A stretch of DNA of 64,000 nucleotides from Deferribacter autotrophicus. GTDB taxonomy: Bacteria; Chrysiogenota; Deferribacteres; Deferribacterales; Deferribacteraceae. Positions within the stretch are counted from its first letter, which is position 1, and each line of letters starts with the position of its first letter. The stretch lies in contig NZ_VFJB01000004.1 of the NCBI RefSeq assembly GCF_008362905.1, forward strand, positions 62,001 to 126,000. The letters are read 5' to 3'. Shown piece after piece: positions 28,134 through 33,958 of this stretch. The notes beneath the pieces were generated by a model, which was not told the origin of the DNA, did not search any database, and saw only the letters and a program-made list of their open reading frames with translations. The position numbers were made by a program, and so were the translations under genes.

Positions 28134-29858
28134 CTAATTCAACCCAAAATCACTCAACAACTTATCTACTTCTTCCTGACTAACACTAAACTGTTCACCT
28201 TGCATCTGCTTTACTTTCATATACCCTAAAATTGCTCCAAATTTTGCACCAATCTCTTCAGTATAGCTTATAATTTTCCTTATTTTCTGCTCTGTAATAT
28301 CCTGGAACTCAAGCGAATTCAACATTTCAAATCCCATATTATCAAGTTCAGCCAATCTCTTTTCTATGTTTTCAATTTGGGATAGTGCTGAATTTTTATC
28401 AGCACTAGATATGTATTTCTCCAGACTACTTAGATCATCTTCAATAGACTTATATACTGATAACATTTTTTCAACATTGTTCATTAGGTTAAATGCAGCA
28501 TTTTCAGCCCTTTCGGTTACATCATCAAGGGAATCTTTTACTGAAGGGATCCGTCTAGATGAATCATCTACAGTGGGCTCTACTTCGTCCACTTTTCTTT
28601 TAGTTTCTACAAGTAATTTCAATAATTCACCTATTTCACCTTTTATATCAATATCAAGCTCTGCTGTCTCACCATTTATAATTTTTTCGGCTATACTTTT
28701 TAATTCTTCTAACGAATCTCTTTCAATTATTATTGAATCAGAATTTTTAGAATCCAAATCTTTATCTGCAAAACTTTCAACTTCATCTACTACATTACTT
28801 TCACAACTATCTTCATCATTTAAATTTTTTTTTTCTTTTTTTCTTTTTATTAATTCTTCTGTTTCTTTTTCTCGTTTGGCTAACTCTTGAGCAATCAAAG
28901 CATCGAGATCATCTTGTGATACATATTCTTCTTCATTACCCAACACTTCTTCACTTTGTTTTAATGCATCCTCCAAAACTTCTTGAGTATCTGGTAATCT
29001 CGCTTTTTTCTTTTTAATCAACTCTTCAGTTTCTTTCTCACGCTTAGCCAATTCTTGTGCAATCAAAGCATCTATGTCATCAATATCTTCAACGCCAATT
29101 TCTTCAGTCTGAGATATTGTTACATCTTCTTCTATTTTTTCAGAGCTTTCCTCTACCCCAATCATATTTTCATTTACATAATCTAACTCAGCTTCTTTCA
29201 CTTCATCTTTTTCTATAGCTTCTTTCTCAGGTTGTTTTGATTCTTTTTCAATGCTAATATCAACTTTGCTATCATTTACAACAGTTTCTTCAACATCCCT
29301 ATCTGATTCAACAAATTGAGAAGCACCCACACTTTCAGGCTTAGTAAAAAACTTTTTCTTTAACTCACTATCATCATATTTCCCTTCTCCAAAAATAACT
29401 CTATCGATATCAAGCAGTATTATTAAACGTTCATTATATTTACAAATACCAAGAATATATTCTTGCCCCACTGACCCCACCAAAGGGGGTGTAGGCTCTA
29501 CAATACTTTTAGTAATTCTCATCACTTCAGTAACTTCATCTACAACAAACCCAATACTTTCCTTCTCAAAATTAACAACAATTATCCTTGTGTTTTTATC
29601 AAAATCGCTTTTATCAAGATTAAATCTCAATCTTAAATCCACTACAGGAATAACTTTACCTCTTAAATTCATTACCCCAAGAACAAAATGATCCACTCTT
29701 GGAACAGAAGTAATTTCAACCATTCTGATAATCTCTTGAACTTTCAATATATCTATAGCGTATTCCTCATCCCCCAGTTTAAAACCAACAAGTTGTATAA
29801 TATCTTCTTCTTTTACAATTTCTTCAAAATCATTTTGGCTTACCTGTTCCGGACACAT
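28134..29858 (-). CDS. CheW-CheZ fusion with internal CheY-binding-like repeats
   Basis: A 574-residue chemotaxis protein. Residues 18-160 are a CheW domain (IQLVGFKLGDEEYAIDILKVQEII, VMNLRGKVIPVVDLR), which couples receptors to CheA. Residues 165-385 are an acidic linker holding two near-identical units, each with DALIAQELAKREKETEEL (263-280 and 319-336). Residues 385-550 are CheZ-like: LEFQDITEQKIRKII keeps the catalytic Asp520 and Gln524 needed to dephosphorylate CheY-P. The end, SQEEVDKLLSDFG (560-572), resembles the CheY-docking tail of CheZ and the N terminus of FliM. I start at MCPEQ, with GAGGTG 4 bases upstream. Confidence 0.85.
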   Translation of the reverse strand: MCPEQVSQNDFEEIVKEEDIIQLVGFKLGDEEYAIDILKVQEIIRMVEITSVPRVDHFVLGVMNLRGKVIPVVDLRLRFNLDKSDFDKNTRIIVVNFEKESIGFVVDEVTEVMRITKSIVEPTPPLVGSVGQEYILGICKYNERLIILLDIDRVIFGEGKYDDSELKKKFFTKPESVGASQFVESDRDVEETVVNDSKVDISIEKESKQPEKEAIEKDEVKEAELDYVNENMIGVEESSEKIEEDVTISQTEEIGVEDIDDIDALIAQELAKREKETEELIKKKKARLPDTQEVLEDALKQSEEVLGNEEEYVSQDDLDALIAQELAKREKETEELIKRKKEKKNLNDEDSCESNVVDEVESFADKDLDSKNSDSIIIERDSLEELKSIAEKIINGETAELDIDIKGEIGELLKLLVETKRKVDEVEPTVDDSSRRIPSVKDSLDDVTERAENAAFNLMNNVEKMLSVYKSIEDDLSSLEKYISSADKNSALSQIENIEKRLAELDNMGFEMLNSLEFQDITEQKIRKIISYTEEIGAKFGAILGYMKVKQMQGEQFSVSQEEVDKLLSDFGLN

Positions 29859-29866
29859 TTTACACC

Positions 29867-30751
29867 TCACAACTTATTCAATACATTCTTTGCAATATCA
29901 TCAATACATTCGGTTATAAAATTTTCATTAGTGCTGGTATAAAAAAGTTCCAGCCTTTTTAAACTTTCCGGTATACTTATATCGTATGGTATAAAACCAA
30001 GCTTTTCAACTTTAATCCCAAGATATTTATTAGCTACATTTTCAAAACCATAAAAAACATTCAATTCTTTTTTAAACTTCAACATATTCAAGACTAATCC
30101 CACTTTGTAGTTATTTATTATATCGACTACTTCAGGAATAGATTTAGAATCATACATTTTTAAATCATCGATTATATCAGTAACTTTCTTATAATTCATA
30201 CTTCTACTTCTTAAGCGTTTTAATACTTTTTCAAGCAAAGGATTATTTTTTAAACTTCTTTCAATAAGCCTATATAAAGCAATCTTTATAAATCCATAAG
30301 AATTCTCAATTGATGTAGGTTCGCTGTTCATAATAACAACTTTTTTTTCAGAATAGTTGAAAAAATCCAACATATTATAGCTTGTACCAGCTCCTAAATC
30401 CAATATAACATAATCAAAATTCGTTCTTTTCAAGTTATTAACAAGCTTTAGTTTTTCATAATTTGATATATGTGCCATTCCAAGGATATCACTGGCACCA
30501 CCAATAAATTTTACCCCAGCAGGAGTATCTATAATTATTTCTTCTAATTTATATTTTTCTTTTAAAAAATTGTATATTCCCACCCCTGCAGTTTTTAATC
30601 CTACAAAATTATGTAGATTTGCACCTCCTAAATCTCCATCGACCAGTAAAACATTATTCCCTTTGTTTTTCAAAGAAATAGCAAGGTTAGCAGAAAAAAA
30701 GCTTTTACCAACACCACCTTTTCCACTAGCAACAGATATAATTTGTGCCAT
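29867..30751 (-). CDS. MinD/ParA-family ATPase, FlhG-like
   Basis: A 294-residue deviant-Walker ATPase: SGKGGVGKS at residues 9-17, switch VDGDLGGANLH and DYVILDLGAGTSYNMLDFF. Members of this branch (FlhG/YlxH) set flagellar number or position polar chemoreceptors. It lies 8 bases upstream of the CheW-CheZ gene, which suggests a role in placing the chemotaxis or flagellar apparatus. No flhF is next to it, so the precise role is open. Confidence 0.82.
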   Translation of the reverse strand: MAQIISVASGKGGVGKSFFSANLAISLKNKGNNVLLVDGDLGGANLHNFVGLKTAGVGIYNFLKEKYKLEEIIIDTPAGVKFIGGASDILGMAHISNYEKLKLVNNLKRTNFDYVILDLGAGTSYNMLDFFNYSEKKVVIMNSEPTSIENSYGFIKIALYRLIERSLKNNPLLEKVLKRLRSRSMNYKKVTDIIDDLKMYDSKSIPEVVDIINNYKVGLVLNMLKFKKELNVFYGFENVANKYLGIKVEKLGFIPYDISIPESLKRLELFYTSTNENFITECIDDIAKNVLNKL

Positions 30752-30752
30752 T

Positions 30753-31178
30753 CTATCTTCTATATTTTTTTACTATATAAAACACACATATATACACTAT
30801 AAAAGCAGCTACTATGCCGACAACATGAGTACCCACGAAAAAAGGTATAAATATTTCTTTCACGTTATTAAACATATCATGAAAAGTTAAATGCTTCCAA
30901 TCTATTGATATATTAACTTTTATATCGGTTAAAATTAATCCCACTTTATAACAAAAAGCATAAATAAATAAAATCGTGATTGGATTAGTAATATAAACAC
31001 CTAGAATAACTGGATAAATAGGCAAATTAAAAACATAAGAAACCACTATACCTAAAACTGTATGAAGGCCAAAGTAAGGTGAAATACCTATAAATGTACC
31101 AATAGCAGCAGACAACGCAACAACATTCGCAGACCTATCTATTTCTAACAGTTTTTTTAACTTATCCCGAAGTTTAAT
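30753..31178 (-). CDS. DUF2062 membrane protein, probable AUU start
   Basis: An integral membrane protein with the DUF2062 core SAAIGTFIGISPYFGLHTVLGIV and a C-terminal helix pair. The family normally has a basic N-terminal stretch before that core. In this frame the stretch (KLRDKLKKLLEIDRSANVVAL) is present upstream, yet the frame has no ATG or GTG there. An AUU at 31176-31178 has GAGGG 4 bases upstream, giving 141 residues. A TTG at 31113-31115 would give 120 residues without a ribosome site. Function unknown; it abuts the MinD-like gene by one base. Confidence 0.7.
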   Translation of the reverse strand: MKLRDKLKKLLEIDRSANVVALSAAIGTFIGISPYFGLHTVLGIVVSYVFNLPIYPVILGVYITNPITILFIYAFCYKVGLILTDIKVNISIDWKHLTFHDMFNNVKEIFIPFFVGTHVVGIVAAFIVYICVFYIVKKYRR

Positions 31179-31208: not shown

Positions 31209-33542
31209 TTAGTCTTCAACAGCAATTTTCAAAATATCATCAAACTTTTCCACAAATACCATTTTTAATGATTTTCTTATATCCTTCGGCAATTCTACCA
31301 AATCTTTTTCATTCTTTTTAGGTAATAATACTGTTTTAATATTGTGTCTTTTTGCTGCCAAAAGTTTTTCTTTTATCCCACCTATCGGCAACACCTTACC
31401 TGTAATGGTAATTTCACCTGTCAATGCTACATCTTTTTTTACTTTTACTTCTTTAAACACAGAATAAATAGCCGTTGCAATTGTTATACCTGCAGAAGGG
31501 CCATCTTTCGGTATTGCACCGGCAGGTACATGTATATGTATATCATATTGGTCAAATATTGTCTCATCTATTCCATACTTTGAGGCAATAGACCTAACAT
31601 GAGTTAGCGCCGCTCTTGCCGACTCTTTCATCACATCACCTAACTGACCTGTAAGTATGAGGTTACCTTTACCTTTATACTTAGTGCATTCAACAAACAG
31701 TATTTCTCCACCAAATGGAGTCCAGGCAAGACCTGTTACAATACCTACTTCATTTTCTTTCAACTCATCTTCAGCTAAGTATTTAACGGGACCAAGATAT
31801 TTTTGAAGAACTGCTTCTGTTATTAAAAATTTATCCTTTTTCCCTTCAGCATACTGTTTTGCTGCTTTTCTACAAATTTTTCCTATTAATCTCTCAAGGT
31901 TTCTCAGGCCAGATTCTCTTGTATATCCAGAAATTATCTTATCTACAGCTGCTTTAGTAAATTTAATCTGTTTAGGTTTTAATCCATTTTCAACAATTTG
32001 ACGAGGAATCAAATACTTCTCAGCAATCTTTACCTTTTCTTCTTCAGTATAACCAGGCAAATATATTATCTCCATTCTATCTTTCAACGCTGGAGGAATA
32101 GGATCCAAATAATTAGCAGTGGTAATAAATAGTACTTTAGACAAATCAAATGGCACACCAATATAATGATCCACAAAAGCATGATTCTGCTCAGGATCTA
32201 AAACTTCAAGTAATGCAGAAGAAGGATCACCTCTGAAATCCATCCCTATTTTATCTATTTCATCAAGCATAAAAACAGGGTTATTAGTGCCGCAATTCTT
32301 TATCCCCTGAATAATTTTACCAGGCATTGCCCCAATGTAGGTCCTTCTATGCCCTCTAATCTCTGCCTCATCCCTCATTCCACCAAGGGAAATCCTATGA
32401 AACTTCCTCCCCATCGCTCTTGCTATGGATTTACCAAGGGAGGTTTTACCTACTCCTGGAGGTCCTATAAAACAAAGTATTGGACTTTTCATATTAGGAT
32501 TGAGCTTGCGAACAGCTAAAAACTCCAAGATCCTCTCTTTAACCTCTTTCAATCCGTAATGATCTTCATCAAGTATTTGCTTTGCACGTTTTAAATCTAA
32601 TTTATCTTTACTGCTTTTACTCCAAGGCAACTCCACAAGCCACTCAAGATAAGTCCTCACAACGGTTGCTTCAGCTGAGTCAGGATGCATTTTTGACAAT
32701 CTATCAAGCTGTTTTTCAGCCTCTTCCTTAACCTTTTTGGGCATCTTTGCTTTTTTGATACTCTTCTCAAACTCTTCTATCTCCTTTTGAAAATCATCTT
32801 CTTCACCAAGCTCTCTTCTTATAGCTTTCAATTGTTCTTTTAAGAAATATTCACGTTGACTCTTATCAATTTCCCCTCTTGCATCATTTAGAATTTTTTG
32901 TTGAACCTCAAGTATTGCAATCTCTCTATTCAGAGAATCAGAAACTTTTTTTAATCGTTCAACTGGATTTTGTATTTCTAAAACTTCTTGTGCTTCATTT
33001 ATTTTCAATCCAATATTAGCTACAATTATATCCGCAAGCTTTCCCGGATCATCTATACTATCAATAATAGCAAGCAAATCTGGAAGCATCGGTTTACCAA
33101 GGCTAACAGCCCTACCAATTTGATCCTTAACATAACGAGTTAATGCTTCCACATTTAAATCTTTTTCTACTTCTATCTCACTAATTGGCCTAACTTTTAC
33201 CTTGTAATAAGGCTCCTTTGAAACATACTCTTCAATACTTCCTCTTTTTAACCCCTGAACAAGAATTTTTACTCTGCCATCAGGAAGTTTTAACATTCTC
33301 AGTATCATTGCAACACAACCAACTCTGTATATGTCATCCTCTTTTGGGGATTCAATCATTGCATCTTTTTGAGCTGCTAAAAATATTAACCTATCTTTGT
33401 TCAGAGCATCATCTATGGCAGCAATACTTGATTCTCTACCCACAAAAAGTGGTAAGACCATATAAGGGAAAATAACAATATCTCTTAAAGGCAATAAAGG
33501 TAACTCTTCAGGTATATTTATTTCATGTTCTAAATTTTCCAT
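31209..33542 (-). CDS. lon: ATP-dependent protease Lon
   Basis: Cytoplasmic hexameric AAA+ protease that removes misfolded and regulatory proteins. The 777-residue protein has the N-terminal substrate domain ([24 protein letters not shown]), AAA+ module with [13 protein letters not shown] and [10 protein letters not shown], and C-terminal Ser-Lys dyad protease ([10 protein letters not shown] and [10 protein letters not shown]). Two adjacent ATGs are possible; GGAGG favours the second. The start overlaps the hsp20 stop, so the chaperone and protease are co-translated. Confidence 0.97.
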
Positions 33543-33958
33543 CATTCCTCCCTCTTTTTTCTATTAATAATAATCTCTAAAACACCATCTTTTAACGCTG
33601 CCTTAACATTATCTTCATCAATATCCTCAGGCAAAGATATTGCTCGTCTAAAAGGGAAAAAATCTCTTTCCATACGGAAATATGTAACTTTTTGATCATA
33701 TTTGATATCTGATTTATATCCCTCTAATATCAAATTATTTTCATAAAGATACACTTTAAAATCTTCAAGTTTGACACCCGGCAAATCCACCAAAACTTTA
33801 ATTTCATCACTATACACAAAAACATCCATAAGAGGGTAGTTACTCTCAAATACAGATTTTTTGCTCAATATCCTATCCAATAATTCAAACATGTCATTCA
33901 GTTCTCTACTTAAAATACCATGAATTAATCTAAACCTTGTTACAGGATCATTGCCCAT
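33542..33958 (-). CDS. Small heat shock protein Hsp20
   Basis: A 138-residue alpha-crystallin-type chaperone that holds unfolded proteins. The domain spans about 40-135: [35 protein letters not shown], then [31 protein letters not shown] with the A-x-x-x-n-GVLEI signature. Its stop overlaps the start of lon. No CIRCE or other heat-shock operator is visible in the 10 bases before it; transcription probably comes from galU or further upstream. Confidence 0.93.

Follow-up and report, generated by a model that had tools for sequence, protein, structure and literature searches.

A stretch of 64,000 nucleotides of the Deferribacter autotrophicus genome (the window) harbors a gene on its reverse strand (28,134–29,858; ATG at 29,858, stop codon at 28,134–28,136) encoding a protein of 574 amino acids, in which an N-terminal CheW domain is joined by a long linker to a C-terminal CheZ-type phosphatase region. 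We favor, with moderate confidence, the reading that this protein is a CheW embedded in the array that brings along both a phosphatase and motifs for docking CheY-P, and thus an adaptor-phosphatase of flagellar chemotaxis. The domains, the fold prediction, the conserved catalytic pair, the conserved docking-like motifs and the phylum-wide retention together with flagella form the observed basis of this reading, from which we infer integration into the array, docking of CheY-P by the linker, phosphatase activity and dimerization. No description of a CheW–CheZ fusion protein was found in the open papers searched; already known are the family of each half, the non-covalent coupling in Escherichia coli and the combination of CheW with an extra domain (CheV). 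It has long been asked how the shape and the sensitivity of the chemotactic signal depend on the site of CheY-P destruction, array or cytoplasm; in the proposed role, the swimming signal would be switched off at its source. Annotation of the fusion as just 'CheW' misses a putative phosphatase.

The CheW and CheZ halves

CheW is the link between the chemotaxis receptors and the CheA kinase, contacting the tip of the MCP and the P5 domain of CheA. The CheW domain of the fusion (residues 22–155; 29,394–29,795, reverse strand) is recognized by Pfam PF01584 with 139.6 bits (cut-off 23.5; E 7e-41) and matches CheW sequences in the PDB with E-values as low as 5e-29. R66, which corresponds to R62 of E. 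coli CheW, falls on chain position 62 in an ungapped alignment with 2HO9, and both R66 and other CheW residues are invariant in 28 homologs (the role of R62 in E. coli CheW is addressed in PMC3828127). Judged from these sequence features, the domain is a credible array anchor.

The CheZ-type region (28,203–28,712, reverse strand) is matched weakly by Pfam; PF04344 covers residues 407–551 with 28.1 bits in the protein scan and 33.5 bits in the genome-wide search, at a cut-off of 30.7. Sixteen homologous C-terminal regions were combined into a profile, and in a search of all PDB sequences E. coli CheZ (1KMI) was its best match with E 6.7e-7; the runner-up, a coiled coil, followed at E 0.003. Foldseek with the whole-protein model returned CheW structures only (E 1e-15), hence the CheZ region was modeled separately. 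The AlphaFold model of this region alone consists of a short helix (383–395), two long antiparallel helices forming a single-chain hairpin (408–484 and 488–552) and a C-terminal helix, at a moderate mean pLDDT of 71.7, and its top PDB match in Foldseek is again 1KMI (E 1.3e-3, probability 1.00). The earlier note on this DNA had named the four-helix CheZ hairpin as a structural check of its domain assignment, and the model bears this out for the single chain; the hairpin probably pairs with that of a second copy.

The profile alignment places the catalytic motif LEFQDITEQK (28,284–28,313, reverse strand) on that of E. coli CheZ, with FQDITEQ opposite FQDLTGQ, so that Asp520 and Gln524, numbered correctly in the earlier note, correspond to D143 and Q147. 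It is conceivable that the CheZ domain is inactive and serves as a dimerization or spacing element, given that its Pfam score is weak and that another CheZ in the genome could do the work. However, D520 and Q524 are invariant in 28/28 fusions, down to about 30% identity and within a domain of moderate conservation, and the CheZ halves that occur as separate genes in some genomes (see below) also retain EFQDIT(E/Q)Q, which makes an inactive domain quite improbable. With these domains, this fold prediction and the conserved catalytic pair, the fusion is a putative phosphatase.

The joining of the two halves could also be an artifact of assembly or gene calling, yet at least 33 of 51 Deferribacterota genomes, single-contig assemblies among them, encode the two domains in a single open frame. 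This conservation already refutes the artifact reading, to which we assign practically no weight. Together with the Pfam CheW match and the CheZ profile and fold matches, it establishes the fusion of an N-terminal CheW and a C-terminal CheZ, as had been claimed from the sequence of this one gene, as real.

Linker repeats and the C-terminal tail

The linker (approximately residues 173–381, roughly 210 residues; 28,716–29,342, reverse strand) is mostly predicted to be disordered, with pLDDT below 50 over residues 173–261 and 348–381 of the full-length model, in which CheW is folded. It had been described as an acidic linker; acidic it is, but not merely so, since two strongly conserved repeats lie inside it. 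Repeat 1 (DIDDIDALIAQELAKREKETEELIKKKK, residues 258–285; 29,004–29,087, reverse strand) coincides with a predicted helix at 262–286, and repeat 2 (VSQDDLDALIAQELAKREKETEELIKRKK, residues 313–341; 28,836–28,922, reverse strand) contains the CheY-docking-like core QDDLDALI and falls on a predicted helix at 315–348. Across 28 full-length fusions, D263, L265, I266, E269, L270, R273, E274 and E276 are invariant in repeat 1, and D319, I322, E325, L326, R329, E330 and E332 in repeat 2, where Q315 is nearly so; L568 and G572, close to the C-terminus, are invariant too. The protein ends in a tail of the CheY-docking type (FSVSQEEVDKLLSDFGLN, residues 557–574; core region 28,137–28,184, reverse strand) with a predicted helix at 561–570.

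The first half of the repeat consensus, (Q)xxΦDxLIAxELxKREKETEEL, is shaped like the CheY-docking peptides of the FliM N-terminus and the CheZ C-terminus. The core Q..[ILV]D.[LIM][LIM] is present in 26/28 linkers compared with 0.13 expected from shuffled linkers, a figure to be read with the pattern having been written after the repeats were seen and with the 28 linkers being homologs and not independent. Within the window, the pattern occurs twice in 18,164 residues (frames longer than 200 amino acids), both times in the fusion protein. In the weaker of the two tests, a weight matrix derived from peptides of FliM and CheZ scores the C-tail strongly, repeat 2 marginally (p 0.005–0.3) and repeat 1 without significance. 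The C-tail SQEEVDKLLSDFGLN, with a score of 19.7, has the form found in CheZ C-tails and in the FliM N-terminus of the phylum (MADILSQEEIDALLS), and it is gone in a Mucispirillum-like lineage. On these sequence grounds, docking of CheY-P by the linker repeats is plausible, and if they do bind it, they would constitute a docking element so far undescribed in array proteins. The conserved EL..RE.E part runs past any known CheY-docking motif, leading to the possibility of another partner for the repeats.

When two peptide patterns derived from the linker repeat were used to scan the genomes of 84,980 species, which probes the repeat and not CheW–CheZ fusions in general, 26 loci were recovered, all of them in Deferribacterota (Calditerrivibrio, Mucispirillum, Denitrovibrio, Seleniivibrio and relatives). 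Related motifs were also seen in other arrangements. A 308-kb plasmid of Deferribacter desulfuricans encodes a CheW with one repeat and without CheZ (L127:2332-3147), adjoining cheV, cheY and cheA, and N-terminal FliM-like motifs are present in CheZ proteins of the Deferribacterota family f10 and of two small-genome species elsewhere (L128:1031-1969, L129:558-1514, L168:562-1284 and L169:635-1357).

Distribution and origins of CheW–CheZ fusions

Some match to the protein, if only to CheW, is found in 51/51 Deferribacterota genomes, and the presence of the fusion follows that of flagella across the phylum. Approximately nine genomes (G017–G019, G030, G032 and G034–G037) carry a CheW-plus-repeats half and a CheZ half as adjacent separate genes, the break lying just past the second repeat, while two more are interrupted by contig ends at the fusion locus. 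In one of the split-gene genomes, the CheZ half contains in-frame stops (G018:C21:17924-19012), representing either a decaying copy or sequencing errors. Since the split-gene genomes are nested among the fused ones in the CheZ tree, splitting is the likelier derived state, and its occurrence in several lineages indicates that covalent tethering is dispensable there; the tethering on which the earlier proposal was built is hence not indispensable. The CheZ part is missing from G014 and G016, the two near-complete genomes without FliM, from G049, which is 64% complete, and from family f9 (G004 and G005), whose members are flagellate and keep a CheW without repeats.

The earlier note had suggested a search for the architecture across the phylum, in which the fusion proved widespread, as given above; it is, however, confined neither to this protein nor to Deferribacterota. 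In a domain-wide sample of 385 genomes, a single genome outside Deferribacterota (G310) has CheZ in a CheW frame, and CheW–CheZ frames are present in approximately 53 of 246 sampled genomes of the phylum to which it belongs, probably Nitrospirota, across many families and with two in one genome (G541). An architecture unique to one genome or phylum is ruled out by these fusions (L126:1313-2497, an example next to cheA, and L134–L154). Like those of Deferribacterota, they run from an N-terminal CheW to a C-terminal CheZ with a docking-type C-tail (e.g., SQEDVDDLLKEFGF), but their CheZ is of the classical kind and their linker short and devoid of repeats, whereas the Deferribacterota fusion has a long, repeat-bearing linker.

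In the CheZ tree, the second-phylum fusions do not fall with those of Deferribacterota but join free CheZ proteins from other bacteria. A single origin of both types is rejected by the AU test on CheZ (p 4.6e-5) and weakly on CheW (p 0.04), both results being tempered by long branches and a short domain. As the CheZ and CheW trees both set the second-phylum fusions apart, two or more origins are likely, and the apparently independent second fusion suggests that joining the activities of CheW and CheZ is useful. The two phyla offer a natural comparison: one has versions in which the phosphatase is joined to CheW, encoded apart from it or missing, and in the other a fusion of the two seems to have arisen independently. 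CheZ was also found in 148 of 398 sampled Pseudomonadota genomes, and there 0/7 testable CheZ-motif frames, from ten loci picked for long frames, contained a CheW domain.

Proposed role and genomic context

The genome encodes a separate CheZ of 215 amino acids, whose gene is flanked by cheY and cheA in the flagellar cluster, and free CheZ and fusion occur together in most Deferribacterota genomes. The earlier note had described a phosphatase fixed at the receptor arrays, implying that the fusion is the sole or main CheZ, and this is not supported, the fusion not being the sole sink for CheY-P; a separate full CheZ was also one half of the outcome, next to a lack of phosphatase activity, that the note had named as speaking against it. 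The cluster comprises FlhB, FlhA, FlhF, FlhG, FliA, CheB, FliM, a FliN-type protein, CheR, cheA, cheZ and cheY, and no cheW was found in it, which makes the CheW of the fusion a natural partner for the CheA of the cluster and the fusion a candidate for the main CheW of this flagellar system. This CheA (L013:7070-9163) is composed of Hpt, dimerization, ATPase, CheW-like and receiver domains, the phospho-acceptor motif of the terminal receiver being intact; P2, the CheY-recruiting domain of CheA, was not detected in it. CheV is also encoded in the genome.

For the favored adaptor-phosphatase, the following course of events can be proposed. The CheW domain of the fusion would enter the receptor/CheA array, and one or two helical docking segments of the flexible linker, together with the CheZ-type C-tail, would catch CheY-P leaving CheA. 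The CheZ hairpin, which probably dimerizes with the hairpin of another copy, would then strip the phosphate by means of Asp520 and Gln524, so that part of the CheY-P would be destroyed at its production site, while the separate soluble CheZ would act elsewhere. The source-and-sink arrangement in one polypeptide that had been suggested earlier may be realized in this manner. A bolder and rather less probable proposal is that the phylum-specific repeats form a docking array that catches CheY-P released from a CheA without a detected P2 and passes it to the tethered CheZ, with the ATPase encoded by the adjacent gene positioning the unit; if true, this would amount to a self-sufficient sink in the receptor array that captures CheY-P and destroys it.

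The domain composition of CheA bears on the substrate as well. Because the cluster CheA ends in a receiver with an intact phospho-acceptor motif, CheV is encoded and docking motifs of such type bind receiver domains, the CheZ part could act chiefly on the array-fixed receivers of the CheA-REC hybrid and CheV instead of on diffusing CheY-P. The docking motifs are of the FliM type, however, and the ligand of FliM is CheY, hence we consider array-fixed receivers a rather doubtful main target.

Directly upstream of the fusion gene, with a gap of 8 nucleotides, lies a gene for a MinD/FlhG-family ATPase (29,867–30,751, reverse strand). A Shine-Dalgarno-like GAGGTG immediately 5' of the ATG at 29,858 is likely the ribosome-binding site of the fusion gene, an in-frame GTG at 29,870 is an alternative start, less favored in view of this site and of the ATPase stop codon 8 nucleotides ahead of the ATG, and the ATPase and fusion genes are probably co-translated. 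Further upstream follow genes for a DUF2062 protein (30,753–31,115, reverse strand), a neighbor conserved by synteny, and for the Lon protease (31,209–33,545, reverse strand), a neighbor kept in many genomes. The order lon, DUF2062, MinD/FlhG-like ATPase and cheW–cheZ is repeated across Deferribacterota families, and wherever the contig extends far enough, the ATPase gene adjoins the fusion in each of the ten families inspected. Apart from the ATPase of the window, the genome encodes a distinct FlhG (L013:14159-15010).

This constancy of gene order raises the alternative that the fusion is mainly an array-positioning protein, with the ATPase binding the repeats and placing the arrays at the pole and CheZ being brought along. 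In the Vibrio ParP/ParC system, a CheW-like protein is likewise genetically coupled to an ATPase of the ParA/MinD family (PMC5706961), and docking of CheY leaves the conserved half of the repeat unexplained. Unlike that of ParP and ParC, the putative partnership of fusion and ATPase is suggested by gene order, and the closest solved structures to the ATPase are FleN, FlhG and MinD and not a tested ParC. Moreover, ParP has its CheW-like (AIF) domain at the C-terminus, a ParC-binding part at the N-terminus and no CheZ, whereas the CheW domain of the fusion is N-terminal, and the fusion was for this reason not filed as ParP. Family f9 keeps the ATPase and CheW as neighbors, yet CheZ and the repeats are both gone, which, in this one lineage, links the repeats with CheZ and not with the ATPase. 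Positioning as the main function is therefore unlikely, although the readings based on positioning, on array-fixed receivers and on an inactive CheZ are not all mutually exclusive.

The favored adaptor-phosphatase has counterparts among known systems. An array-bound CheZ has precedent in E. coli (PMC7750401; PMC2673030), where CheA-short likewise brings CheZ, with the same Asp/Gln pair and hairpin, to the receptor array, and where the placement of CheZ alters the dose response (PMC2673030). The contact between CheZ and CheA-short is non-covalent, whereas in the fusion CheZ is covalently attached to CheW and the linker contains the repeats. In Campylobacterota, CheZ is likewise placed by a separate localization element, ChePep (PMC7750401), but ChePep, a distinct protein, lacks a CheW domain, while the fusion carries its own. 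CheV resembles the fusion in that a CheW domain is extended by a second signaling domain acting within the array, and differs in that this second domain is a phospho-acceptor receiver in CheV and a phosphatase-type domain in the fusion. Elsewhere in the D. autotrophicus genome, just ahead of a cheV, a region of contig C9 (L014:2429-5212) resembles a diversity-generating retroelement, with a tail-protein-like ORF ending in GGNWGY...CRPAF, an Avd-like ORF of 115 amino acids and a reverse transcriptase.
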